Of a stretch of 64,000 bases of DNA, positions 1,342-16,143 are shown in pieces. The notes under the pieces were generated by a model, which was not told the origin of the DNA, did no database searches, and saw nothing but the letters and a program-made list of their open reading frames with translations. The translations under genes were made by a program, and so were the position numbers. This DNA is from a virus: positions 1 through 64,000 of the IMG/VR virus record IMGVR_UViG_3300035670_000022; one strand, given 5' to 3'. The first letter of the stretch is position 1; every line of letters begins with the position of its first letter.

Positions 1342-2202
1342 TCAAGATTTGGGTGAAATAGGTTTGACTGAGATGTAGTCTGCATATAGATCCTCGGCGG
1401 TGTAGTTATCAAGGTTCTTGATCAGGCACTTTCTAAATATGTTTAGTCCTGAGAGAATGGCGAAGTCTTGATTCTTGCGGCTATATCTCCCGTAAGGATC
1501 TATGGAAGATGTCGCCTGGTCGTTAAAACTAAATTGGGAGTGCCCAAAGTCAATCGCTTCTGGGATGGCTGACATGTTATCTGTGTTTAAGCAGCCATGC
1601 ACAAAACCAACGTCTTCCCATTGCTTCTGTAAAGCAGCGTAGTCAAGGACAATCTGTCTAAAAGACTCTAAGCGATTTTGACAGACCGGATAGTAAACAC
1701 TGAGACTATGCCACAGTTTATCAATGTCTTGGGGGTTGTGTCTGTAAACGTATTCAAACGTCCCAATACGAAAAGGACAGCTTCGACGAATGATGCTGGT
1801 TGCGTTATCTTCTCCGTGTTTATAGACTGCTATTGTGTTTTGCGTACGGATACCTAAACGCTGTAACTCTAGAGAGGTTCGAGCCTCGTTAATTGCAGAG
1901 GTAACTGAGTAGTTTCCCCTACCAAACTTTGTATAAGGTGTAGTAAAACCACCCTTCGCAATGTATACAGATTGGGCATCGTCTGCCACAGGATCTAGAC
2001 TGCAGTCATGGATGATAGCGGATCTGCCATCTCCTAAATCTTGATACTCTCCAAACTGTGTTCCACCATAGTTTAGACTCACCCCTGCTTTTAGCTGAGG
2101 GATAAAGGCAGGAGGTGGTTGGAGGTACACTAAGTTGTCCGTAGGGACGTCGAGCGTGGTTGACGTGGCAAGATTGCCGGGATAAAGACTCGGATACAGC
2201 AT
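1342..2202 (-). CDS. selO: Minimal SelO-family pseudokinase (protein AMPylase)
   Basis: SelO (YdiU/UPF0061) proteins have a kinase fold with inverted ATP orientation and transfer AMP to Ser/Thr/Tyr of target proteins. Visible SelO signatures, in order, are: YGGTQFG..LGDGR at 45-60, the KGGFTTPY segment with Lys83, a helix Glu (E106), RIGTFEY at 145-151, VGFVHG..NTDNMS at 198-211 with D208/N209, and the IDFG metal-binding motif at 217-220 (D218). The RYSRKNQ element at 239-245 matches the end of the family core. Every key position I know of is kept, so it should bind ATP. It has 286 residues against about 480 in bacterial SelO; the C-terminal region is missing. A motif copy sits 22 nt upstream. 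Family assignment is strong; the target is unknown. Confidence 0.88.
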   Translation of the reverse strand: MLYPSLYPGNLATSTTLDVPTDNLVYLQPPPAFIPQLKAGVSLNYGGTQFGEYQDLGDGRSAIIHDCSLDPVADDAQSVYIAKGGFTTPYTKFGRGNYSVTSAINEARTSLELQRLGIRTQNTIAVYKHGEDNATSIIRRSCPFRIGTFEYVYRHNPQDIDKLWHSLSVYYPVCQNRLESFRQIVLDYAALQKQWEDVGFVHGCLNTDNMSAIPEAIDFGHSQFSFNDQATSSIDPYGRYSRKNQDFAILSGLNIFRKCLIKNLDNYTAEDLYADYISVKPISPKS

Positions 2203-2224
2203 TTATGCTTTCTTCTTTTTCATG

Positions 2225-2240
2225 TACTCTTCTCTGTTTT
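2225..2240 (-). promoter_or_regulatory. Dispersed motif copy upstream of the SelO-like gene
   Basis: The core AAAACAGAGAAGAGTA is exact on the minus strand and lies 22 nt before the SelO-like ATG. Between them a 6-codon ORF (ATG AAA AAG AAG AAA GCA TAA) overlaps the start as TAAATG. A leader peptide is conceivable but unproven. Confidence 0.5.
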
Positions 2241-2265
2241 TTTTGAAACCGACTTGGACTTTTAG

Positions 2266-2284
2266 ATTCTGAACCGTTCAGAAT
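2266..2284. repeat. Palindrome ATTCTGAAC-C-GTTCAGAAT
   Basis: A perfect 9-bp inverted repeat with a one-base centre, overlapping the stop codon of the gene at 2278-2496. A second copy differing only in the centre base is at 25123-25141. No U-run follows, so an operator or DNA-protein site is more likely than a terminator. Confidence 0.6.
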
Positions 2285-2496
2285 GTCTTTTTCTTTTTGA
2301 ATTTGGCAACGTATTTTTGTAACTGCTTACCGTCCTTCAAATTATCCTTGACGCTGAATTCTTCGTTATTGAGTTTTCCGTACAGGTCTATAGACCTGTT
2401 GTTATGGATAATTGCTATCACATACCAGTTCTTTCTATAGTGCCATTCCATTTTGACACTGTCAAAATCCAGCGTAACTTCCACTAGCTTATTCAT
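2278..2496 (-). CDS. Hypothetical protein, 72 aa
   Basis: A small basic protein ending in a lysine-rich tail. The central part alternates hydrophobic and polar residues as in a small beta-sheet. The start has a plausible purine-rich site (GAGAG) upstream. Its stop lies inside the ATTCTGAAC palindrome. It belongs to a run of small early genes; I do not recognise it. Confidence 0.55.
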   Translation of the reverse strand: MNKLVEVTLDFDSVKMEWHYRKNWYVIAIIHNNRSIDLYGKLNNEEFSVKDNLKDGKQLQKYVAKFKKKKTF

Positions 2497-2510
2497 AGGA
2501 GTCTCTCTTC

Positions 2511-2699
2511 TTAGAACGGTATTTCTTCCCAGCGGTCGTAGTGGTCATCAAAATATTGATCTCTGTAGCTATAGTGTTTTGTTGGGCAGTGTCCCATATC
2601 AAACCAGCCATGTCCAATCTCATCGTAGAAGAGGTTACGCCCCCACTTCTCCATCATTAGACCCGTCCAGAGATGTAGCGCCCAGATTAACTTGTTCAT
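2511..2699 (-). CDS. Small aromatic-rich hypothetical protein
   Basis: The ORF encodes up to 62 residues rich in Trp, Tyr, His and Asp. From the first ATG (2699) it overlaps the upstream zinc-ribbon gene by 65 nt; starting at Met15/16 (about 2657/2654) would cut the overlap to ~20 nt and gives a 47-48 residue protein. The unusual composition suggests a real small early protein, but no family is recognised and the start is uncertain. Confidence 0.4.
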   Translation of the reverse strand: MNKLIWALHLWTGLMMEKWGRNLFYDEIGHGWFDMGHCPTKHYSYRDQYFDDHYDRWEEIPF

Positions 2700-3084
2700 T
2701 GTTAGATTCCAGCTTAAGTTTTGTCAATAAGTGTTGGATTTTTTCTGCCGCTTCTAGGTCTATAAAGACTAAGGGCACGTCGTTAGGGATACGAGGTCCG
2801 AAGATCTGCGCAGCCAGTTCGCGGCTGATAGACACGGATTTACCTAATCTGTAAGCCTCGTCAAGTTCAACGTAGGACTTCTTCTGTGGGAAAGAAGCCA
2901 CGACTAGATGTAAAAAGCCTCTATCTGTTAGCTTCTGATGGTCTGAACATAAAGCAAAACCGGTGACCACTTCGCCACCTACATCTGGGACCATTTTTGA
3001 ATCATACATCCACCCAGTTTCGTGGGTTACACCACACACAGGGCAGGCCTGTTTCTCTATAACTGCGTCTATTTTGTTATTCAT
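2635..3084 (-). CDS. Zinc-ribbon-like hypothetical protein, 149 aa
   Basis: The N-terminal part has CPVCG at 14-18 and a later CSDH pair at 46-49, the layout of a small zinc-binding treble clef. The rest is a mixed fold with an acidic, Gly/Asn-rich C-terminus that looks flexible. Phage early proteins of this kind often bind nucleic acid or host proteins; nothing here specifies which. It lies between a coiled-coil mini-protein (3121-3300) and small ORFs on the same strand. Confidence 0.55.
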   Translation of the reverse strand: MNNKIDAVIEKQACPVCGVTHETGWMYDSKMVPDVGGEVVTGFALCSDHQKLTDRGFLHLVVASFPQKKSYVELDEAYRLGKSVSISRELAAQIFGPRIPNDVPLVFIDLEAAEKIQHLLTKLKLESNNEQVNLGATSLDGSNDGEVGA

Positions 3085-3120
3085 GGTTTAGTTAAACGAA
3101 TACAATACTTCTAGCTTAGG

Positions 3121-3300
3121 TCAACTGCTTCGACGCTTTAGCTCTTCTTCAATCAACTGCTCGAGTTTAAGTTGTTGGACTGTTTTTGCTGCCAGGTTGA
3201 GAAGATGTTGATACTCTCTAAGTAGATCAGCATACTCTTTCCTACGCAGTCTAGAAATAACGGATGTCCAATCTGGTTTAGTCAGGTTGAAGTTTTTCAT
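3121..3300 (-). CDS. Small helical protein, 59 aa
   Basis: The ATG at 3300 overlaps the TGA of the nucleotide kinase gene (ATGA), a classic coupling arrangement. Translation gives MKNFNLTKPDW at the start, then an almost continuous amphipathic helix rich in Arg/Lys/Glu/Leu to the TGA at 3121. It fills the space between the kinase and the zinc-ribbon gene, which supports it being real. Function unknown; a small protein-binding helix is likely. Confidence 0.6.
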   Translation of the reverse strand: MKNFNLTKPDWTSVISRLRRKEYADLLREYQHLLNLAAKTVQQLKLEQLIEEELKRRSS

Positions 3301-3902
3301 CTACTCTCTGAGTTGAATATTATAGGTAGCGATTGTTTTAAAACTGAAATAGACTCTTCTATAAAATCTTCTGGGGTGTTCGCCTGATTGACTAACTTAA
3401 TGAATTTTACCCCTCTGGACTGAAAGCGCTCTACATTGAAGTAGTTTCTGCTGTCACCTTCAAAGGAGCAGTTCTTTCTGTATAGCTGTACAACGCTGAT
3501 TAGACTTGGATCGAAGTTATGTAATAGCGGCTCTAACTCTTCGTCGAAGCCACCGTCACTTACTAGAAAGACATCGTCTTCTTTCGTGTTACGTCTTTTA
3601 ATTGTCAGAATGAGTTGTAGTCCAAAGAAGTCTTTGCCGTGATTCTTCTTGATATAGTCTTCTGACATTGAGATGTATGCTTGGCGGGGGGTTAACCCTA
3701 TGAACTCACTTAGGGGCTGGTCTTTATATTTTTCGTATGCCTCTGGGTGTTTCTCTGGGGTGTCGTAAACCCGATGCACCATCTGTTTTAGGCTGTAGGC
3801 ATACTTTACGTGTTGCATATTGCCGTAGTTCTTGATCAGATAGTCGGTAAGAGTGTCTTTTCCACTCTTTGGAGGTCCATTAAAGATGACAATCTGTTTC
3901 AT
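3297..3902 (-). CDS. P-loop (deoxy)nucleoside monophosphate kinase-like
   Basis: Residues 9-17 (GPPKSGKDT) form a Walker A loop of the NMP-kinase type, directly after an initial beta strand. The 201-residue length and the later basic LID-like segment resemble T4 gp1-like deoxynucleotide kinases, which phosphorylate dNMPs for DNA synthesis. It follows the E1-like gene across a UUCG-loop terminator and is translationally coupled to the 59-residue gene. Specificity cannot be read from sequence; adenylate or guanylate kinase-like activity is also possible. Confidence 0.65.
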   Translation of the reverse strand: MKQIVIFNGPPKSGKDTLTDYLIKNYGNMQHVKYAYSLKQMVHRVYDTPEKHPEAYEKYKDQPLSEFIGLTPRQAYISMSEDYIKKNHGKDFFGLQLILTIKRRNTKEDDVFLVSDGGFDEELEPLLHNFDPSLISVVQLYRKNCSFEGDSRNYFNVERFQSRGVKFIKLVNQANTPEDFIEESISVLKQSLPIIFNSESR

Positions 3903-3920
3903 CGAAAAATCTGGTAGTTG

Positions 3921-3940
3921 AAAAGCCTGCCGAAGCAGGC
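3921..3940 (-). terminator. Intrinsic terminator with UUCG loop
   Basis: The minus strand reads GCCTGC-TTCG-GCAGGC followed by TTTTC. The UUCG tetraloop is exceptionally stable. It lies between the E1-like gene and the kinase, 18 nt before the kinase start, so it may only partly terminate. Confidence 0.75.
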
Positions 3941-3950
3941 GACATGTCCC

Positions 3951-4679
3951 TTAAAAAATTCGCGGTGGAGTCCCACACTCGTACAGCTTACCAGTCTTTG
4001 CCATAGACCAAGATGCCCCGTCATAGTCAAAGAATAGAGGTGCGGTGCCTTCTTTTAAAAGTTGATAGGCAATTTCTAGCGCCATTAAGGCTCCGGCAAA
4101 GTTAGCGTTTAATAACTGAGGTGTAGACACAGCCTCGACCCCACAGTTACCCCGGTTCTCATCTGTAGGTTCAGCATAGTTTTGGATGACATCAAAGGGA
4201 TGACACGGCGCAATTTTACCGGATATCCGCGTATACCATGAGCAGGTTGCTGTGTGATAGTCATTCCCGGGTAGAATCACGGCGTAGTTTAAGTGTGTAG
4301 GCAGGTTATCCAAAGCACGAATGATATCGTGTCGTGCTGCCTCTGAATCAACCCCTGGGATGATTAGAGAATCATAAGGAGAGTCTAAGGCGGCGGATAA
4401 CACGAAAGAGCCGAAGTTATCTTCTCGAACGTATAGCGGATAGGCTGTGGTTTTACACAGACAGCTAAGCCGCTCAGCCAACGCAACTGCTTTGTTTACG
4501 CCTAAATATTTAGGGTCAAACAGTTGTCGAGAGCTATTACTATCTTCGTACACATCACCATCGTAGATATGAACAGCGGGTTTGAATCCTTGGCTGTAGG
4601 TAACCAGTCGGATAATAGGCTCTGCCAGAATTGTGTCTAATCCACCGGCACCACAGAAAAAGATATTAGAGAATTTCAT
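3951..4679 (-). CDS. ThiF/E1-like activating enzyme (PRTRC-type)
   Basis: E1/ThiF enzymes adenylate the C-terminus of ubiquitin-like proteins. The Rossmann start has GAGG at 10-13. The segment DGDVYEDSNSSRQLF (40-54) matches the E1 signature D.D.V..SN..RQ, giving Asn48, Arg51 and Gln52, followed by Lys63. Asp111 in a strand-end 'PGVD' fits the Mg/ATP site. Cys179 in NCGVEAVSTPQLL lies where PRTRC ThiF proteins have CSLAEAL..QDLF and is the best candidate catalytic cysteine. The 242-residue length is that of a minimal E1. The ATG at 4679 has a good AGGAG site and overlaps the JAMM gene by 14 nt, so the two are co-translated. Confidence 0.85.
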   Translation of the reverse strand: MKFSNIFFCGAGGLDTILAEPIIRLVTYSQGFKPAVHIYDGDVYEDSNSSRQLFDPKYLGVNKAVALAERLSCLCKTTAYPLYVREDNFGSFVLSAALDSPYDSLIIPGVDSEAARHDIIRALDNLPTHLNYAVILPGNDYHTATCSWYTRISGKIAPCHPFDVIQNYAEPTDENRGNCGVEAVSTPQLLNANFAGALMALEIAYQLLKEGTAPLFFDYDGASWSMAKTGKLYECGTPPRIF

Positions 4680-5874
4680 TTGGACTCCTGAGTGAGTTGT
4701 ATAGGTTTAATGCGCTTTGGGGAAGATGCATCTCTAGGTCAAGTTCTTCTGCTAAAGCAGATGCGACTAGAGATACACCAGAAGGGTGACTTAACACGTC
4801 TTTTAATGCCATTTCGAAGTAGCTAAAGTCTTCACACAGTTCCATCATGTACTCTTCGTCGCCTGGCACAAGATCGTAGCAGTGGTCGACGGTAAGGTCT
4901 TTTTGACTTAGTTGTTGTTCAAGACTTTTCTTATACTTACTAACGTCGACATCTGCATTCACCGCCCAGTCAGGGTTGGCATACCAGTCAGCGTAGTCAT
5001 ACCCATCGTCCCAGTAATCAAAGTTCTTATAGGCGTGACTGCGGCGAGATACGTCACTTTGATTTGGTTTTGCAGTGTAATTGGCATAGTTGCCGTATAC
5101 ACCATAAGGGTAAGTGACTTGTCGTGCCGGCTCTTGTAATTTGATGTAGCTAAATACTTTCTCATTTAGCACGACGTCGCTAGTGTCTATATGAATGGTT
5201 TGAGCTTTAAGTTCTTTTTTGTCTACCGTCTTTAAAGAACTTAAGTCAACAATGCGACTGGGGGAGAAAACGTATCTATTCTTGTTTTGGACAATGGAGG
5301 CACATAGGTCTACGGTGTCTTCAGAGATACATCCCATGGTGCAATGGGCTCCTGAGATGTCGGTCTCATCTTTGGTATCTGTTGCAGACCAGAAAGCAGC
5401 CATAGTGTTGTGACTGTGCATTGTGCCACTTACGACCCAGTCTTCAATATCGTAGCTGTCGAATTCCTCCCCTGTAAGAATGTCTACACAGGGTACTCCT
5501 CCTGACTTAGTCCGCGCGGTGCGAACCGTTGCTGCTTGAATGATTTGCATAGGGGCTAATGCCCGCCAACGGTCAATGTGTTCTGTGTGTCGCATCAATA
5601 CGACTAGAACTTCATAGTCGGGTTCTTTAAGCGCAAAAGGCAGTTGAGTACTCTGCGCTCGATCATTACAGTAGTGTCGAAATAGGGAGACTATACCCTT
5701 AAAAAGAGTCAGCGGTATCTTTTCGAAATCTGGTTTAAGGGTAAAGTTGCTTAGCTCTTGAGGCTCATCTTCGCCTTTAGGGTCATCTACTTTTGCGTAG
5801 TAGCTCCCCCAGTAGCGGTTCTCTTTAAGAACATAGAAGCCTTTTTTACCCCGGAAGAATGGTTTTTTTTGCAT
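4666..5874 (-). CDS. JAMM/MPN+ (JAB) metalloprotease, PRTRC-A-like
   Basis: JAMM proteases cleave ubiquitin-like proteins after their C-terminus. With numbering from an in-frame GTG at 5883, MHSHNTMAAFWSATD gives the zinc motif H-x-H-x7-S-x2-D at His156, His158, Ser166 and Asp169; Glu91 at the end of an N-terminal strand is a plausible catalytic base. Residues ~200-400 are an extension with a Tyr/Asp/Trp-rich stretch near 280-310 that looks disordered. I prefer the ATG at 5874 because AGGAG lies about 9 nt upstream; the GTG overlaps the previous stop (GTGA). It is coupled to both neighbours, the E2-like gene upstream and E1 downstream. Confidence 0.85.
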   Translation of the reverse strand: MQKKPFFRGKKGFYVLKENRYWGSYYAKVDDPKGEDEPQELSNFTLKPDFEKIPLTLFKGIVSLFRHYCNDRAQSTQLPFALKEPDYEVLVVLMRHTEHIDRWRALAPMQIIQAATVRTARTKSGGVPCVDILTGEEFDSYDIEDWVVSGTMHSHNTMAAFWSATDTKDETDISGAHCTMGCISEDTVDLCASIVQNKNRYVFSPSRIVDLSSLKTVDKKELKAQTIHIDTSDVVLNEKVFSYIKLQEPARQVTYPYGVYGNYANYTAKPNQSDVSRRSHAYKNFDYWDDGYDYADWYANPDWAVNADVDVSKYKKSLEQQLSQKDLTVDHCYDLVPGDEEYMMELCEDFSYFEMALKDVLSHPSGVSLVASALAEELDLEMHLPQSALNLYNSLRSPNEIL

Positions 5875-5879
5875 AATGT

Positions 5880-7427
5880 TCACTCCTCGAAGTATGCGTC
5901 ATCGTCTTCGTCATCGTCGTCATCGTCGTCTTCGTCATCGTCGTTCTCTTCGTCATAGTCTTCGTCATAGTCGTCATCATCTTCCTCTTCCACATTTTCA
6001 GCGGAGGTTAGAATGTCTTCGTAAATAGGAGAGTAAAAGCAGCCAGTAGCTTCTCTTAGTTCTTCTAGGTCGACGTAGACTATTTCTCCCTTACTCAAAG
6101 GACTATCGATTGTTGGGAGCTTAATTGCTTTTGTCTTGGTGTTTTGTTTAGGGTATTCTAAAAGCCACAGAATATTGACTTTACTTGTTCTTTCTAGCCT
6201 GTATAGCACCAAACCGCGTAAGCATACGTCTTCGTTACCTGTGACGATGACATTCAGCGGCTCATTCACGTTCTCTAAACAAAGGTGTTTCTCTTGTGCG
6301 GTTTGCAGTCTCTGTTTGGATACGTCGGATATATCGCTGTAGTCTTTGTAGTCTAAGTAATATGCTGTTAATTCTGTTTGGGCTACATTGCACCCAAATA
6401 AGTGTTGGTGATAGTCGTACAATGGATAGGGTATCGGACACCTACTGACTTTAGAGCCATCTTCAAAGACATATTCTTTAAGTGCTTTATTTCTAGCAAC
6501 TTGGTCTTCACCAAAGACTGGATATTGAAGAAGGTTGTTGGCATTTAAGTCTATGTACTTTGTGACCTTGTTCTCTTCATGGCGAATGTCAGCATTAAAA
6601 GGAAGGCTAAAGAACAACTCAGATGCTTCTGACAACATGGTAGGGGGGTACATTGTCCCCCAACATATAGTGGCATCGCTAAACACGTTGGTGATGCGCA
6701 TTCCTTTAAGCTTTCTTTCTGACCGCGCGTCCAAAAGTCCGTAGCATTTACGTGTACATGCTTTTGGTATTGTAATATGTAAGCACGAATACCACGCATG
6801 CTTGGGTAGAGTTATCTTTGTGTATCTTGGCACAGATCTTTCTAATTTGCAGTTATCAGAAGTATATCCGGTACACCAGGGAACAGAATCTAAAATTCGT
6901 TTAACGTCCTGTCTGGTAGCAAGATGGATAGCTAGAATAACTGAGATCTTTTTTCTTATGCGGTCGGATATACCAGACTCCTGTAATGCTCTATGTAGTG
7001 GGAAGTTTGCTTTGATTTCAGGAATCATTAAACTGGCGGCGCAGCACAGCTCTTCATCTGACTTATCCTGCAACGCTGTAATAACAGCGTAATAGAGTTT
7101 ATCGAAGTAGCAATCGTATTCCTTTGGCGGGTCTATCTCTTTTTCTAGATTTATTTCGTCCCATTTTATGGATACAAAATGATAACGGATTTTTTCTGCG
7201 TAACTTAGTGTGGACTTCTTATCTAAGGTTCCACTGTATAACGGACAGTGAACGCATTCATGCTCTATAAACATTTTCTCACTCGTTTCGTCAGTGAGCT
7301 CCACCTCGATAGTTTTTTCTGGGCAAAGTGCGTAGAGGTTTAAATTTACATTCTCAGAGTCGGATGTAGGATTAATCTGTAGGTAGACTTTCTGAGTCTC
7401 TTTTGGAAGTAATTCGACTGTAAACAT
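5880..7427 (-). CDS. PRTRC-B/E2-like protein with acidic tail
   Basis: This 515-residue protein lies between the Ubl and JAMM genes where PRTRC cassettes carry protein B, regarded as an E2-like fold. The segment ITNVFSDATICWG (245-257) resembles the 'NV..dG.vC.G' strand-turn of that family, with Cys255 as a candidate thioester residue. Several Cys pairs (around 58-61, 205, 224-228) may bind metal. The last ~37 residues are almost only Asp/Glu, encoded by a trinucleotide-repeat-like stretch at 5884-5995. No promoter is visible: a strong terminator ends 11 nt before its ATG. The E2 role is inferred from position and one motif. Confidence 0.5.
   Translation of the reverse strand: MFTVELLPKETQKVYLQINPTSDSENVNLNLYALCPEKTIEVELTDETSEKMFIEHECVHCPLYSGTLDKKSTLSYAEKIRYHFVSIKWDEINLEKEIDPPKEYDCYFDKLYYAVITALQDKSDEELCCAASLMIPEIKANFPLHRALQESGISDRIRKKISVILAIHLATRQDVKRILDSVPWCTGYTSDNCKLERSVPRYTKITLPKHAWYSCLHITIPKACTRKCYGLLDARSERKLKGMRITNVFSDATICWGTMYPPTMLSEASELFFSLPFNADIRHEENKVTKYIDLNANNLLQYPVFGEDQVARNKALKEYVFEDGSKVSRCPIPYPLYDYHQHLFGCNVAQTELTAYYLDYKDYSDISDVSKQRLQTAQEKHLCLENVNEPLNVIVTGNEDVCLRGLVLYRLERTSKVNILWLLEYPKQNTKTKAIKLPTIDSPLSKGEIVYVDLEELREATGCFYSPIYEDILTSAENVEEEDDDDYDEDYDEENDDDEDDDDDDDEDDDAYFEE
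5884..5995 (-). repeat. GAY/GAR triplet tract encoding acidic tail
   Basis: On the + strand the tract is built of tcg/tca/tct triplets such as tcatcgtcgtcatcg. It encodes the Asp/Glu tail at the C-terminus of the PRTRC-B-like protein. Such tracts can change length by slippage; the tail may mimic DNA or act as a docking tail. Confidence 0.7.
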
Positions 7428-7428
7428 A

Positions 7429-7474
7429 AAATATAAAATTCAAGCTGTGTCTCCAAGTAGAGACACAGCTTGAA
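7429..7474 (-). terminator. Strong intrinsic terminator between Ubl and PRTRC-B-like genes
   Basis: A perfect 15-bp stem (7439-7453 with 7460-7474) and 6-nt loop is followed on the minus strand by TTTTATATTTT. It starts 20 nt after the Ubl stop and ends directly before the next ATG (7427). Read-through would then set the ratio of Ubl to the rest of the cassette. Confidence 0.85.
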
Positions 7475-7494
7475 CTGTGAACGGTGGATAAGGA

Positions 7495-7869
7495 TTAGGC
7501 TTTAGAGTTACCTGTAACGAGCAGGTTGTATACCTCTCCTGCTTGGGGGATCGTCGTTGAGTCTACGTATTGACCGCTGTGGCGAAAACGAATACGGGAA
7601 ACGTCGTTGATCCCGAGAGAGTCTGCGGCGCTGGAAAGAATGGAGTGTAGCTCAGTATTGTCGGCTGCAACAACGACCTCTTCGGTACCGAAGATAAGAG
7701 TTACCCCTTCTAGAGGATCAATGCTAGAAACAGCTTCTACATCGTCGCTGAAGTCTTCTTCAAACACTTCTTGGGTAACAGCAACTTCTTCTGCGGCGGG
7801 CTGCTCAACAGGGATATTGCTCAAAATAACTTGGTCTTCTGCGGAAGCGGTTTCGAAAATCGTACTCAT
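7495..7869 (-). CDS. Ubiquitin-like beta-grasp protein (PRTRC-C-like)
   Basis: The first ~52 residues are acidic and low in hydrophobics, so probably disordered. Residues 55-119 fit a beta-grasp fold: strand GVTLIFG, a second strand EVVVAA, helix TELHSILSSAADSLG, then strands RIRFRHSG and VYNLLVTG. The protein ends ...VTG-NSKA, with Gly120 four residues from the end, so exposing a glycine terminus would need trimming, plausibly by the JAMM protease. It is the first gene of the cassette (Ubl, B-like, JAMM, E1) and is followed by a strong terminator, which suggests it is made in excess. The fold is predicted by eye. Confidence 0.68.
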   Translation of the reverse strand: MSTIFETASAEDQVILSNIPVEQPAAEEVAVTQEVFEEDFSDDVEAVSSIDPLEGVTLIFGTEEVVVAADNTELHSILSSAADSLGINDVSRIRFRHSGQYVDSTTIPQAGEVYNLLVTGNSKA

Positions 7870-9294: not shown

Positions 9295-10422
9295 TTAGAT
9301 TATCGGGGGAACGTAGTCACGGGTAACGCCTGCATATTCAGAGAGAATAGTCTGGGGGGAGTTGCCACAGTATTTAGCAATATCAGTTAGACTCTCTCCA
9401 GATCGCATCAATAGAGTAATGCAACAATGTCTCATTTGATAGGGATTGCGATACCGGATATCCGGCAACTCCGCGAGGACGTTCTTCCAGGCGTTGGAGT
9501 TAAAGCTATCCCAGTTGAGTCTTGCTCCCCTAGAGCTATAAAAGACATAGGGGCGGGAGCCGGTCAACCGACGTTGTTCTTCTAGCGCTTCTTTAACCTT
9601 TTGGTTAATTAGGATATGTCGGCTTGCTTGAGTCTTGAGCCGTTTTGTATCTTTTCGTTGAACATACGAGTTACGAAAAGTGATGGAATCCTCACTAACG
9701 TCAGACCACTTTAGTCCTGCTGCCTCCGACGGTCGACAACCGACAAAGAACAAGAACGTGACTAAAGGAGCATATTTGCTGTAAGTCTTGCTATTCTTGA
9801 ATGCCTCTATTATTCTATCCCTCTCCTCTTTAGTAAACGGATCGGGCTCTTCATGCTCTTGGGTACGTCTAACATTTCTGCTGACCTCTGTGCTGATCTG
9901 CTTAAAGACGTTGGTCTCTATTAAGTTAGACCCTACAGCCCATTCGCAGCATTCGCTAAGGCGCATTAATATCTTTCGCGCTTGTTTAGGAGGCTTGTGT
10001 TCAAGCAGCCAGTCTCTTATCTCTAAAGCTGAATCTAACGAGGTAGATGGCAATAAAGGAAGCACGTTACCGACTCTACGCTTATAGTCAAGCTCTAGAC
10101 TGACTTTAGCCAAACCCAGTCTTGACTTATACTCAAAGAATTTTTTCCAGAGATCTATTAATGTCGGATTGGGTTTCTCTTTTTTGTTATTCTTAGCAGT
10201 GTTTTTCTTGTTGCTTTTGGGTTTGTATCTTTCTAGGGTATGATCAAAGTCTCCTTTTTCTAAGTCAAGATCGATCTGGCGTATCACGAACTCCGCGTGA
10301 CGCATGTGGGCACGATCACCATATTTACCGTTTTTTACAGGGGAAAACACATAGCGTTTTCCGTCGACTTGAATGCGGATGCGAATGCCGCCACTGTTAT
10401 TCTCCAGTTTAGGGAGAGACAT
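9295..10422 (-). CDS. int: Tyrosine recombinase / phage integrase
   Basis: The 375-residue protein has an N-terminal arm-binding-like region, a core-binding SAM-like helical domain (~85-180) and a catalytic domain (~195-375). Active-site residues are visible: Arg230 in GCRPSEAAGL, Lys263, the YQMRH box with Arg331, Asn354 in GNS (often His), and the nucleophile Tyr363 in SEYAG. This is a full-length, intact integrase. Its start overlaps one repeat pair of the putative attP, next to a tRNA-His 3' segment, so site-specific integration into a host tRNA-His gene is the likely role. Confidence 0.93.
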   Translation of the reverse strand: MSLPKLENNSGGIRIRIQVDGKRYVFSPVKNGKYGDRAHMRHAEFVIRQIDLDLEKGDFDHTLERYKPKSNKKNTAKNNKKEKPNPTLIDLWKKFFEYKSRLGLAKVSLELDYKRRVGNVLPLLPSTSLDSALEIRDWLLEHKPPKQARKILMRLSECCEWAVGSNLIETNVFKQISTEVSRNVRRTQEHEEPDPFTKEERDRIIEAFKNSKTYSKYAPLVTFLFFVGCRPSEAAGLKWSDVSEDSITFRNSYVQRKDTKRLKTQASRHILINQKVKEALEEQRRLTGSRPYVFYSSRGARLNWDSFNSNAWKNVLAELPDIRYRNPYQMRHCCITLLMRSGESLTDIAKYCGNSPQTILSEYAGVTRDYVPPII

Positions 10423-10782: not shown

Positions 10783-12342
10783 CTAATTGGATTTATCTTG
10801 GGCAAAAGGCTGCCCAGTGTTGCTGCATTGAACAGCCCGTTCTAACTCCAAGGCTAAGTAAGCTAAATGCACGGCTTTTATGGTGGGATGCATAAGAGCT
10901 ATTTCTCGACATATTTGTAGAGGGTTACAGAAATTAAGTGGATAAAATTTCTGATCGAGGTAACTACCTTTTGGGCAAGTGTGAGTAACTTCTATGCCGT
11001 TTTCTTTTAAAGATATGACAAAGTTACCAACGTCATCATGTAAGACGTGTTTAAATTGATACTGCTCGTTGATTGTTTTTTTAGCTTTCTCTAAACTCCA
11101 CTCATAAATATGAGCCGCTTGAGAAATGCAGACTAGGTCACCACAAGAGAGGTAAATATTTTTATTGAGTGTTCTTATCTGTTGACATACTGTTTCTTGT
11201 ACATAACGAAGCGCTGTCAGATTACTGCAGTAGGCTGTGTATATGTCGTGGCTGCGAAAGGTAGCTGTCAATATTAATTTGCCTTTAAAGATCTTTAGGT
11301 TAATTTGGGTTAGACAGGGAGGCTGCGCTGACCCAGCGTCGTTCTGCGGAATCCATAGAGAGACGACTGCTCGGTTGCTATCAGGGTCTTCAATCAAGGT
11401 TCGAACAGCACTTTCTACTTGATTTATCGGATTAAATATTCTTTCGCCATAGGTATACTCAACATCTTTATCTTCTTTGGGGTGCAGCATATCGTAACAA
11501 TACTCTAAGATACTCTCTCGACTAGTCACAAGCCAATCAGGAGTGTATAGCTCTTCAGGCTCTGCCTTAATAACAGAAATAAGATTTAGCAACTCCCGCC
11601 GCTTGCCGACGTTTTGTCCTGTGTAGTATACGGCGTGCATCGCCTTAACCCACGTATGGGCTATTGTTTCTGCCTCTACTCTGACTCCGTTGTCCTGTCC
11701 TGTAAATACCTGAGGGCTAGACTTTTTAATCAAATAAACCTTCGGGGCTTGCTCTTTTGGTTTAGACTCTTCTTGTGGATTAGCTTCGATATGCTCGTAA
11801 AAACTTTTTAGGTCAGTCCAGTAATGAAAGCTGCTGCATAAACTTTGAAGGTCTTGTTCGGTAAAGATGCCATCTACCTCTCCTATTACTTGTTTAGAGG
11901 AGAGGATATCCCACCGCTGTTCATACTCACTCACTTTACTATATACATAATATCCCCTCAATAGCTGTTTCAGCGCCTCACTGCCTTTAGCTAGCCGATC
12001 CTGTTTAGTGCAATTCAGAATATGAATTGGGTACAAGACTGGATTGGCAACTAGGTTAGCTACCAGAGGGCTTAATCCACAGAACGGGTTGTAGAGACTA
12101 CCAATGCAACCGTAGTCTATATTGCTAGACTCTAGCTTTGTTTGCACTCTTTCTTTAGGTGTCCAGCCTGTAACAATGATGGTGTTGCCTTTGCCTAAAA
12201 GCAGATCTTCTTTGCGGTATAGCGGTTGGTAAGACATTAGAGGTGAATAATATGAACACTTGGGGGAAAGGTCGGGATGTTCTCTGCCTTGTCCGACGTT
12301 TGGACAGCCTGTAACATCGTAGGAGTTACCCACAGTAAACAC
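10783..12342 (-). CDS. thyA: Thymidylate synthase with N-terminal DUF4346-like domain
   Basis: ThyA methylates dUMP to dTMP using methylene-THF. The catalytic domain (~225-519) shows YGERIF (298-303), Arg324, the nucleophile Cys343 in PPCLTQ, the RSHD dUMP-binding motif (363-366) and Asn374. The N-terminal ~130 residues contain YGCIGSLYNPFCGLSPLVANL and resemble the domain fused to thymidylate synthase in cyanobacteria and archaea (DUF4346, MtrA-like). At 519 residues it is about twice the size of a bare ThyA. The start is GTG at 12342. It stands with the ribonucleotide reductase genes in a nucleotide-synthesis block. A dUMP/dCMP hydroxymethylase is an alternative. Confidence 0.8.
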   Translation of the reverse strand: MFTVGNSYDVTGCPNVGQGREHPDLSPKCSYYSPLMSYQPLYRKEDLLLGKGNTIIVTGWTPKERVQTKLESSNIDYGCIGSLYNPFCGLSPLVANLVANPVLYPIHILNCTKQDRLAKGSEALKQLLRGYYVYSKVSEYEQRWDILSSKQVIGEVDGIFTEQDLQSLCSSFHYWTDLKSFYEHIEANPQEESKPKEQAPKVYLIKKSSPQVFTGQDNGVRVEAETIAHTWVKAMHAVYYTGQNVGKRRELLNLISVIKAEPEELYTPDWLVTSRESILEYCYDMLHPKEDKDVEYTYGERIFNPINQVESAVRTLIEDPDSNRAVVSLWIPQNDAGSAQPPCLTQINLKIFKGKLILTATFRSHDIYTAYCSNLTALRYVQETVCQQIRTLNKNIYLSCGDLVCISQAAHIYEWSLEKAKKTINEQYQFKHVLHDDVGNFVISLKENGIEVTHTCPKGSYLDQKFYPLNFCNPLQICREIALMHPTIKAVHLAYLALELERAVQCSNTGQPFAQDKSN

Positions 12343-13722: not shown

Positions 13723-16143
13723 TTACTCGGCACAAGCGGAGCAGAACCCCTTGGTTTCGGAAGGAGATTCGTCTTCGGCGGTCGAGCCTAAACCCAGAAT
13801 AGAGAAGTCTTCGTCAATAAAAACGGAACTTTTATCTTGAGTTGCTGGCATTACCTGCAGACTGTAATAAAGACTCAATAGGGGAGAGTCTAACCAGCGC
13901 TCGATGAAGGCTTTATCCATCTGCACCATGTCACTCCACCAATTCATTGAAATGCTGTGAGCGAGTCCGGTGGTATTCATAAGACGTTGCCAAGCAGCAT
14001 TTAACCGGAATTGAATATCCCAACCTACCTCCGACGCGATTTCAACTTTAGGGTTGTAGTCATAGGATTGGACGCCAAAGGTGTCGCTGTCCCGGTCAAC
14101 TTGGCGATCGACAGGGGGAGCAATCTCAGGAGTAGTGGTATATCCCTCTATGTCCTGGTAGTTATAGGAGCATGAAGCAGTGGGAGCAATGGTAAATGCA
14201 CGCTGCATTTTGTATTGTCGGGCGACTTCAGCAGATTGCTTGAAGCCAGTGAACAGCATGTTAACGATAGTTTTAGCTGTGCTAGTCTCCTCTTGCAGTT
14301 CTCCTTCAGACTCCCATATGTCAAGACTGTCTTCTAGAGTTTCAACAAATTCTTTATAGGTGACCCCCGCAATGGCTAAGTGGTTGGCTAAGCCAAGAAC
14401 ACCGAGACCGACTTGTCGATCCTTTGAACTTGGGAGGTAGATACCGCTGTCGTCAGTACCGGTTTGGGCATGTAACTCACAGAGAAACTTCATACCTTCG
14501 GTGAAAGCAGTAGGGATCTCCGACGGGGAACATTCTCCCATGTTGATATGACTAAGCAGGCAGGTGCCCCGGGATTCTAAGAGAATCTCCAAGCAGTTAT
14601 GTACCCGCAGTCCATTACCATCGAACTCGTTAACTTTTGGTATGGTGCAGTCATAAACTTCTTGAACACCAGCAGACTCAATAGAGCTGACTTGAGCCTC
14701 TACATAGCGAGGGGTTTGTTTGTTGTCGCCTTTAGGTTTATAGGAGTCAGTTAACTTTTCCAATAAATACGCTTTGTTCTCCAAGCAGAATCCAATCTTG
14801 TTCTTGAAGACAAGTAGGTCTTCTCGCCCAGAGATTTCTAGCTGCGTGGTGCTCTTTCCTGCTTGAGATAAACGACAGCGGATGCCGAGGCGGGTTAACA
14901 TCTGCATGACCACTCGGGTAATGCTATAAGTTTCCCGAAAACAAATGCGTTTAGTCGCCCGTCCAATACGGTAGGCGGCGGGTAGGGTACAGCACTCTGA
15001 AAAGATGGCTTGAACAAATCCTTTATAGAACTGTGACGATGTGAAGAGCAGTTCTGTGGGAGCCTCCTTTTTGCCTGGCTCTAACCCATAGCTACTGGCA
15101 AGTTCTGTGAGTTTCGTGCTTAAGAAGAAGTTGAAGCCTTCTTTAACATCAAGTCCCAATTCCTTAGCGTATTCAACAGCCATAGGCATGGCGCTTTTTT
15201 TATTACCAGGAAAAGCAAGTCGTGTGATCTGCGGGGTAAATTGAATCCCTAAACAACACATCCAGCCTAATAACCAGCCTTCTTTGAAAGACCCTTTACC
15301 TTCCCAGTCTTTAGCATTTTGGTGACTTACGTGGAGAATGGTGTCTTTAGGGTAGAGATTCTTAATCGGCTTCCATCCTTCTGGAGTCAGCAGCTGGTGG
15401 TCTGGAGTAGCACAGAGACTATAACCTTGAGTCGTATTAAGAGTGACGGTCTCTTTGACGCCGCTCAACCACATTCCTTCTTCTGTAGACGGGTATTCTT
15501 TCCCCTCTACGATGGCTACAAATGCAGTACCTACTAAGTCTTTTGCGTATTTAGGTCCTTTATTGGTGTGCACCACAGTGTCCCCTGCTACGCAGACGTT
15601 GTGGTATAGCCGTGAACCAGACTCGCTGTGAGTCTTTTTCACTAACCATAGATCCCCTCGACGACAAGCAGCTAAAGCCGCTTCTAAATGTTTCCAGTTT
15701 AGGAAGTCATTGTCTACGTTCAGACATCGTTTAACCCAGGGTAGTTGTGCCCGATCTGCAGAGATGAACTCTAAGGCATCTGGGTGGTCGTAGTCGAGGT
15801 GGATTGTGATGGCTCCGTTTTTAAACGTGCCTCCTCGGCGCAGTACTTCATTGATCTTTGAGTAGATCGTAGAGAAAGACACCGGACCACTAGACACTAC
15901 ACCGCTCTTACTTTCTGTTCCTTTAGGACGCAACTTAGAGAGGTGGATAGCAACTCCTGCTGCGTTTCGTAGCGCTTTTGAAGCAAACAGCCAGGAGTCT
16001 TCTATCGCACTCACACCTTCCATGGAGTCCTCTACGGACAACACAGTGCAAGAGACGGGTAAGCGATTGTTTTTATCTTGTAGCCAGCTTTTAATACGCC
16101 CCGTCAGTGCTAGGTACTTTGGGACTTCAAGATTTGCAGACAT
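13723..16143 (-). CDS. nrdA: Ribonucleotide reductase alpha subunit with intein
   Basis: This enzyme makes deoxynucleotides from ribonucleotides. The extein has Cys32 in PVSCTVL (redox cysteine region), a glycyl/substrate segment (65-125), the active-site CLEI at 517-520, GTCLLSHINMGE, the PTAS phosphate-binding region and a C-terminal CSACAE redox pair. An intein occupies 184-516, so the mature protein is about 473 residues, compact compared with ~750. The thiyl-radical cysteine (E. coli Cys439, in NLCLE) is Cys517, the first residue after the intein, so activity requires splicing. A strong site (AGAGGAGA) precedes the ATG at 16143. Confidence 0.88.
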   Translation of the reverse strand: MSANLEVPKYLALTGRIKSWLQDKNNRLPVSCTVLSVEDSMEGVSAIEDSWLFASKALRNAAGVAIHLSKLRPKGTESKSGVVSSGPVSFSTIYSKINEVLRRGGTFKNGAITIHLDYDHPDALEFISADRAQLPWVKRCLNVDNDFLNWKHLEAALAACRRGDLWLVKKTHSESGSRLYHNVCVAGDTVVHTNKGPKYAKDLVGTAFVAIVEGKEYPSTEEGMWLSGVKETVTLNTTQGYSLCATPDHQLLTPEGWKPIKNLYPKDTILHVSHQNAKDWEGKGSFKEGWLLGWMCCLGIQFTPQITRLAFPGNKKSAMPMAVEYAKELGLDVKEGFNFFLSTKLTELASSYGLEPGKKEAPTELLFTSSQFYKGFVQAIFSECCTLPAAYRIGRATKRICFRETYSITRVVMQMLTRLGIRCRLSQAGKSTTQLEISGREDLLVFKNKIGFCLENKAYLLEKLTDSYKPKGDNKQTPRYVEAQVSSIESAGVQEVYDCTIPKVNEFDGNGLRVHNCLEILLESRGTCLLSHINMGECSPSEIPTAFTEGMKFLCELHAQTGTDDSGIYLPSSKDRQVGLGVLGLANHLAIAGVTYKEFVETLEDSLDIWESEGELQEETSTAKTIVNMLFTGFKQSAEVARQYKMQRAFTIAPTASCSYNYQDIEGYTTTPEIAPPVDRQVDRDSDTFGVQSYDYNPKVEIASEVGWDIQFRLNAAWQRLMNTTGLAHSISMNWWSDMVQMDKAFIERWLDSPLLSLYYSLQVMPATQDKSSVFIDEDFSILGLGSTAEDESPSETKGFCSACAE
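14596..15594 (-). other. Intein in NrdA with degenerate homing endonuclease
   Basis: Residues 184-516 start with CVAGDTVV (Cys1 and block A) and have TPDHQLLT (block B with its His), then IPKVNEFDGNGLRVHN (blocks F and G, ending His-Asn), followed by Cys+1. All splicing residues are present. The middle (~285-465) resembles a LAGLIDADG region, but the two motif helices read LLGWMCCLGIQF and FVQAIFSECC, without the usual catalytic acids. Splicing should be intact while homing is probably lost. Confidence 0.9.

Follow-up and report, generated by a model that had tools for sequence, protein, structure and literature searches.

Gene content of the locus

The DNA under study (hereafter the window, 64,000 nucleotides) is the first 64 kb of the 155,913-bp IMG/VR virus record IMGVR_UViG_3300035670_000022. 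Its minus strand carries a cassette of four genes encoding, in the order of transcription, a ubiquitin-like protein (Ubl), an E2-like protein, a JAMM metalloprotease and a ThiF/E1-like adenylyltransferase (Table 1). Judged from its gene content, the record belongs to a tailed phage: a long minus-strand block with genes for a primase, a helicase, a DNA polymerase, a UvsX-like recombinase, a thymidylate synthase and a ribonucleotide reductase is followed by virion structural and tail genes. The four genes probably form a Ubl conjugation system owned by the phage itself, of the PRTRC-like (type 6d) kind. A preliminary description of the same DNA had tentatively combined them with a SelO-like gene into one early programme of protein modification; all five genes are indeed present on the minus strand where that description placed them, and the partnership with SelO is considered in the last section.

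The JAMM gene shares 4 nt with the E2-like gene and 14 nt with the ThiF gene, an arrangement resembling that of operons with translational coupling. Between the Ubl gene and the E2-like gene lie 67 nt holding a strong terminator-like hairpin, so that the Ubl might be produced in excess of the enzymes.

Table 1. Positions of the cassette genes and of neighbouring features in the window
Feature	Position	Strand	Remarks
Ubl, 124 aa	7495..7869	-	Disordered acidic N-terminus and beta-grasp domain (about residues 50-119); C-terminus ...LLVTGNSKA
Terminator-like hairpin	7437..7476	-	18-bp stem, then TTTATATTTTA; between the Ubl and E2-like genes
E2-like protein (Prok-E2_D / PRTRC_B related), 515 aa	5880..7427	-	Motif NVFSDATIC255WG...FNAD; acidic C-terminal tail
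JAMM (JAB/MPN) metalloprotease, 405 aa	4666..5883	-	HSHNTMAAFWSATD
ThiF/E1-like adenylyltransferase, 242 aa	3951..4679	-	GAGG, DGD, R51, Q52, K63, D111, Cys179
Deoxynucleoside monophosphate kinase (phrog_139)	3297..3902	-	Neighbour outside the cassette
Uncharacterised 149-aa protein (phrog_11852)	2635..3084	-	Neighbour
SelO-like protein, 286 aa	1342..2202	-	Catalytic core K83, E106, D208, N209, D218; C-terminal region absent

Sequence features of the cassette proteins

The ThiF protein is matched by Pfam ThiF (E 5e-8) and, under its curated cut-off, by PRTRC_ThiF (E 9e-11), and the JAMM protein by Prok-JAB (E 3e-4) and PRTRC_A (E 4e-5), both under the cut-off; with their motifs intact, the ThiF/E1 and JAMM assignments made earlier are borne out. 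A thioester-forming E1 requires an invariant cysteine, and Cys179 is the residue that would form the thioester here: all 89 aligned ThiF relatives (five of them from plasmids) have it, and D111 as well, the arginine, glutamine and lysine positions being kept in 87 or 88. The JAMM motif HxHx7SxxD, which reads HSHx7SATD in the window, is found in 83 of 90 aligned rows, the other seven being six halves of intron-split genes and one truncation at a contig end.

The split genes belong to three viral loci in which a group I intron (Rfam RF00028) lies inside the JAMM gene (L014:8354-8594, L015:8354-8594 and L016:8354-8590; locus numbers refer to the survey described below). According to the reading of the frames, the intron breaks the gene immediately behind the pair of catalytic histidines (...GSSHSH / NTMQAFFS); joining the exons at the Rfam boundaries yielded no open motif and was set aside. 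Phage introns often occupy conserved codons of important genes, and the position of this one, next to the catalytic codons, hints that JAMM matters to the phages concerned.

For the E2-like protein the evidence comes mainly through its relatives. Prok-E2_D matches the window protein alone only weakly (E 0.08); it matches 5 of 12 relatives (best 8.7e-9), and two homologues, one of them L032:9070-10014, exceed the Pfam cut-off. A hidden Markov model (HMM) built from the relatives and plasmid PRTRC_B, the window protein being left out, retrieves the latter as its sole match among the 463 open reading frames (ORFs) of the phage (E 5.4e-9), over about 50 residues around Cys255. This cysteine is conserved in 109, and the asparagine in 111, of the 114 relatives in the alignment.

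No family model in the Pfam, NCBIfam PRTRC and phrog scans recognises the window Ubl when it is taken alone, yet an HMM built without it recovers it with E 5e-8 (next ORF, 0.43). The AlphaFold2 model, computed with eleven viral relatives in the alignment, has a beta-beta-alpha-beta core at residues 55-118 (predicted local distance difference test, pLDDT, about 79-91 across the block), for which a Foldseek search against the PDB returns SUMO, ubiquitin and TtuB at a probability of 1.00; structure prediction thus upholds the beta-grasp fold previously proposed. The tail of 73 relatives' Ubls consists of Lys-Gly followed by 0-5 residues, and many carry one or two extra residues past this end, in which case trimming would be needed. 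Four further matches of the Ubl HMM (L012:5115, L079:6102, L080:6028 and L097:6027) were discarded as false, being acidic or unrelated ORFs.

A putative Ubl conjugation pathway

The presence, order and overlaps of the genes, their conserved catalytic positions, the Ubl fold and the retention of the gene set in several lineages of large phages are observed; I infer the following chemistry, direction of transfer and use during infection. ThiF would adenylate the Ubl at its C-terminus and then probably hold it as a thioester, through Cys179; from there the Ubl would move on to Cys255 of the E2-like protein, which would join it to lysines of target proteins, and JAMM would trim the Ubl precursor, take the tag off, or both. 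The most likely reading is that, in the course of infection, the phage attaches its own Ubl to proteins. Since no ClpP or Lon is recognisable in the record from which the window comes (G000), which argues, weakly, against a degradation route run by the phage, the tag is more probably a non-degradative one, placed on proteins of the phage or of the host.

Ubl, ThiF and JAMM might alternatively serve sulfur transfer, the Ubl being a carrier whose ThiF-activated thiocarboxylate donates sulfur (in tRNA thiolation, or cysteine or cofactor synthesis) after JAMM has removed a C-terminal extension. This is unlikely, even if some Ubl relatives match Pfam ThiS (best E 3e-4) and TGS, TtuB is among the structural matches, a gene of the PAPS-reductase family lies downstream of one plasmid PRTRC-type ThiF, and sets of JAMM and ThiS in sulfur metabolism have been described (Iyer 2006, PMC1779556). 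Pure sulfur transfer is disfavoured by the E2-like gene, which occurs with its conserved cysteine in nearly every cassette and twice in the closest relatives; the failure to find a rhodanese in 13 records agrees with this, and no sulfur gene is included in the recurrent cassette neighbours.

Several features of the window proteins nevertheless weigh against conjugation. AlphaFold2, run on a divergent alignment, gave no confident fold for the 515-aa protein (mean pLDDT 34.6), for which reason no fold is claimed; for the PRTRC-B-like identity proposed in the preliminary description, the support comes from homology. The assignment to E2, good by homology, draws on a stretch of about 50 residues that surrounds the cysteine. 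Moreover, where type 6d E2s carry a downstream histidine described as absolutely conserved (Iyer 2006, PMC1779556), the phage E2-like proteins have Asn/Asp (FNxD; FNAD in the window). Finally, the window Ubl ends in GNSKA, having neither the conserved C-terminal Gly nor Lys-Gly, a sign, perhaps, that its activity is altered or lost.

The last point raises the question of decay, namely that the Ubl has lost its glycine end and that conjugation by the cassette has ceased in this phage. Among the clear Ubls only L052 (DSKQA) likewise has no KG in its tail, and in the ThiF motif GxGGxG the third glycine, kept in 85 of 89 relatives, is replaced by aspartate (GAGGLD). Yet all four genes keep open, overlapping frames, ThiF, JAMM and E2 retain their catalytic positions, and the Ubls of the closest relatives (L032 and L033) end in KGA (TKGA). 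An alanine end is also compatible with function, since in the cyclic oligonucleotide-based antiphage signalling system (CBASS) the C-termini of cGAS are naturally Gly or Ala, and a change from Gly to Ala lowered conjugation but did not eliminate it (PMC10097602). Decay is thus improbable, even though the window copy of the Ubl may behave unlike its relatives.

Distribution and evolution of the cassette

IMG/VR pattern scans with the single ThiF or SelO sequence of the window gave no match; alignments were needed, and scans with these (plus Vibrio phages) gave loci L010-L023 and L032-L111. After removal of overlaps ThiF is found in 89 loci (84 viral, 5 plasmid) and all four parts, by HMM, in 72 loci, every one viral; the contigs are partly related, so the counts are not those of independent events, which reduces their weight in favour of a conserved system. 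Beyond the 72, Ubl-like genes were spotted by eye only in Vibrio phage D69, L020 and L022. The cassette is not rare among viral genomes. Its gene orders follow few patterns (U, Ubl; E, E2-like; J, JAMM; T, ThiF), namely UEJT in the window, UEJET in L032 and L033, UJET, EJTUT and (E)JTUEE, and since synteny recurs in many other viral loci, a cassette arisen by chance is untenable.

In the ThiF tree the window groups with L032/L033, and most viral cassettes fall together with the window in a clade separate from the plasmid PRTRC, from Bacillota plasmids and from L020 (support 95/89 and 100/94; midpoint root). The similarity of UvsX across the relative records declines in the same order as that of ThiF, which suggests that the cassette is old and has long resided in the lineage.

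The genes around the cassette vary. In 34 loci (L012, L013, L017, L023 and the L054-L111 group) it adjoins the genes for the beta and beta' subunits of the phage RNA polymerase, often together with a radical SAM/SPASM gene, a second ThiF and a Ubl fused to a SAP/Rho_N domain. The EJTUT group has this fusion, the second ThiF and the polymerase genes, and often the radical SAM gene. In the JTUEE groups the Ubl gene is followed by one for a classical AAA ATPase (AAA and AAA_lid_3; L074:11138-12742 and 20 similar loci), a possible tag-directed unfoldase. L020, a 316-kb virus record, has a Lon protease gene (L020:607-2925) about 2 kb upstream of its PRTRC-like cassette. A glutamine riboswitch (glnA leader, RF01739; L014:814-866) is present on a cassette-bearing viral contig; such riboswitches are common in cyanobacteria and cyanophages, and this one hints at the host of that virus.

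On balance, it appears that large tailed phages commonly carry a complete Ubl conjugation pathway that parted in ancient times from the rest of the type 6d/PRTRC family and has a Lys-Gly tail; it would tag phage or host proteins in the normal lytic cycle, and some lineages would couple it to an AAA ATPase or to a locus for a phage RNA polymerase. Searches of the open literature (subscription papers and preprints being outside their scope) returned no paper on phage-borne 6d/PRTRC cassettes, which is limited evidence of novelty.

Until now, ubiquitin-like conjugation in bacteria has been known chiefly as an anti-phage defence. The gene set seen in scores of viral genomes looks like a miniature ubiquitin system, with a tag, an activating enzyme, a carrier enzyme and a protease that removes the tag; a conjugation system kept by phages of several lineages, with near-invariant catalytic residues, would mean that bacterial viruses turn the same chemistry to their own ends. 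The cassettes also offer small cloneable sets (four genes, with a Ubl of 70-120 aa) for testing minimal E1-E2-JAMM cascades and the targets of the phage tags.

Relation to PRTRC, BilABCD and CBASS

The closest known counterpart is the PRTRC system (NCBIfam TIGR03735-03738 and ThiF TIGR03736), which corresponds to operon type 6d (Iyer et al. 2006, PMC1779556). In annotated Ahniella and Cupriavidus plasmids its Ubl, E2-like, JAB and ThiF genes are likewise adjacent and have the gene order of the window, C-(F)-B-A-ThiF, and the window also shares with it the cysteine motif of E2 and weak matches to PRTRC_ThiF and PRTRC_A. These matches remain well under the curated cut-offs (41.6 vs 144.75 bits for ThiF, 23.1 vs 101.8 for A), B and C give none, the Ubl being unrecognisable as PRTRC_C, and PRTRC ParB, E and a separate F have no match among the scanned neighbours of the cassette; the F part could be fused to the N-terminus of the E2-like protein. 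The FNxD in place of the downstream histidine, the Ubl end without glycine, the viral location and a ThiF clade mostly of its own also set the cassette apart. Because the curated cut-offs are missed, and ParB and E are absent among the neighbours, it is not filed as PRTRC, although by analogy it would most likely work like type 6d/PRTRC (PMC1779556).

Among phages, Vibrio phage D69 (OZ195729, L007) carries E2, JAMM and ThiF in the same order, and all three match PRTRC models. It differs in its candidate Ubl gene (L007:4394-5185), which has three repeats each ending in TGTKG, and in its ThiF, about 27% identical to that of the window; its cassette proteins are annotated as hypothetical, and its ThiF is seemingly without an ATG start. 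IMG/VR records 3300035670_000008 (L032) and 3300047551_002099 (L033) are much closer, with the series Ubl-E2-JAMM-ThiF, a ThiF 47-49% identical and an E2 of similar length, but no SelO was found in them and they carry between JAMM and ThiF a second E2-like gene (L032:9070-10014, L033:5954-6898), which the window does not have.

BilABCD and type II CBASS, with Cap2 and Cap3, share the logic of E1, E2 and JAB acting on a Ubl. In type II CBASS, however, E1 and E2 are fused, whereas they are separate genes here, and in both comparisons the present cassette differs in being carried by the phage itself. No CD-NTase or effector was recognised beside the cassette, no genome-wide search for a CD-NTase having been made. 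PADLOC gave no Bil match for the window proteins and, elsewhere, a weak BilD match for the L011 ThiF only; of the profile searches proposed earlier, those with PRTRC and SelO models thus gave the partial matches reported in this text, and those with BilABCD none in the window. By the tests made, the cassette would be neither BilABCD nor CBASS.

These defences could still be its targets, with the phage Ubl, E2 or JAMM acting as a decoy or an isopeptidase against host CBASS Cap2/Cap3 or BilABCD. Hosts do deploy ubiquitin-like conjugation in anti-phage CBASS (PMC10097602), and the E1-E2 models of PADLOC pick up viral ThiF proteins, albeit only partially. A decoy, however, requires only a Ubl or a JAMM, yet E1 and E2 are kept with intact catalytic residues, and the scanned JAMM, E2 and Ubl proteins match no PADLOC model, which makes counter-defence quite unlikely as compared with tagging by the phage.

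SelO and the genomic surroundings

The SelO-like protein resembles the SelO/YdiU pseudokinase AMPylase (PDB 6eac) in its catalytic core and motif positions (PF02696, E 1.4e-33). It has 286 aa vs about 480, however; the match covers profile positions 68-314 of 466 only, some 150 C-terminal positions being missing, and the C-terminal part of the profile has no match elsewhere in the record. The earlier identification as SelO therefore holds for the catalytic motifs and not for the C-terminal region. The closest phage SelO proteins are the full-length ones of Microcystis phages, which gave no match to the window ThiF or JAMM. MT835602 was rejected as a further phage SelO, its surroundings looking like bacterial DNA.

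That AMPylation by SelO and Ubl tagging act together in the phage, as the preliminary description had supposed, is very unlikely. The two share one co-directional gene block and the catalytic core of SelO is kept, but three genes (the kinase, the 149-aa protein and a small 72-aa ORF) intervene, and SelO is missing both from 13 + 47 further viral records that bear the cassette, many of them fragments, and from D69; the best match there is a single sub-threshold one, to the C-terminal part of the profile. As far as these data go, the pairing is peculiar to the phage of the window, and SelO seems a separate accessory gene unrelated to the cassette. Nor does any flanking gene of the window cassette, SelO included, recur near other cassettes.

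As to early expression, its sole basis is the co-directional block of replication and nucleotide-metabolism genes, a promoter scan having done no better than shuffles. In a scan of genome contigs the ThiF relatives were all weak and came for the most part from Acetobacterium and further Clostridia, giving no pointer to the host.

Three other genes of the window deserve mention: a tyrosine recombinase (9295-10422; Phage_integrase, E 4e-14) within this 156-kb phage record, a thymidylate synthase domain joined at its C-terminal side to PterinBD-DUF4346 (10783-12342), and a ribonucleotide reductase gene with an intein (13723-16143; Intein_splicing, E 3.5e-10; LAGLIDADG weak).

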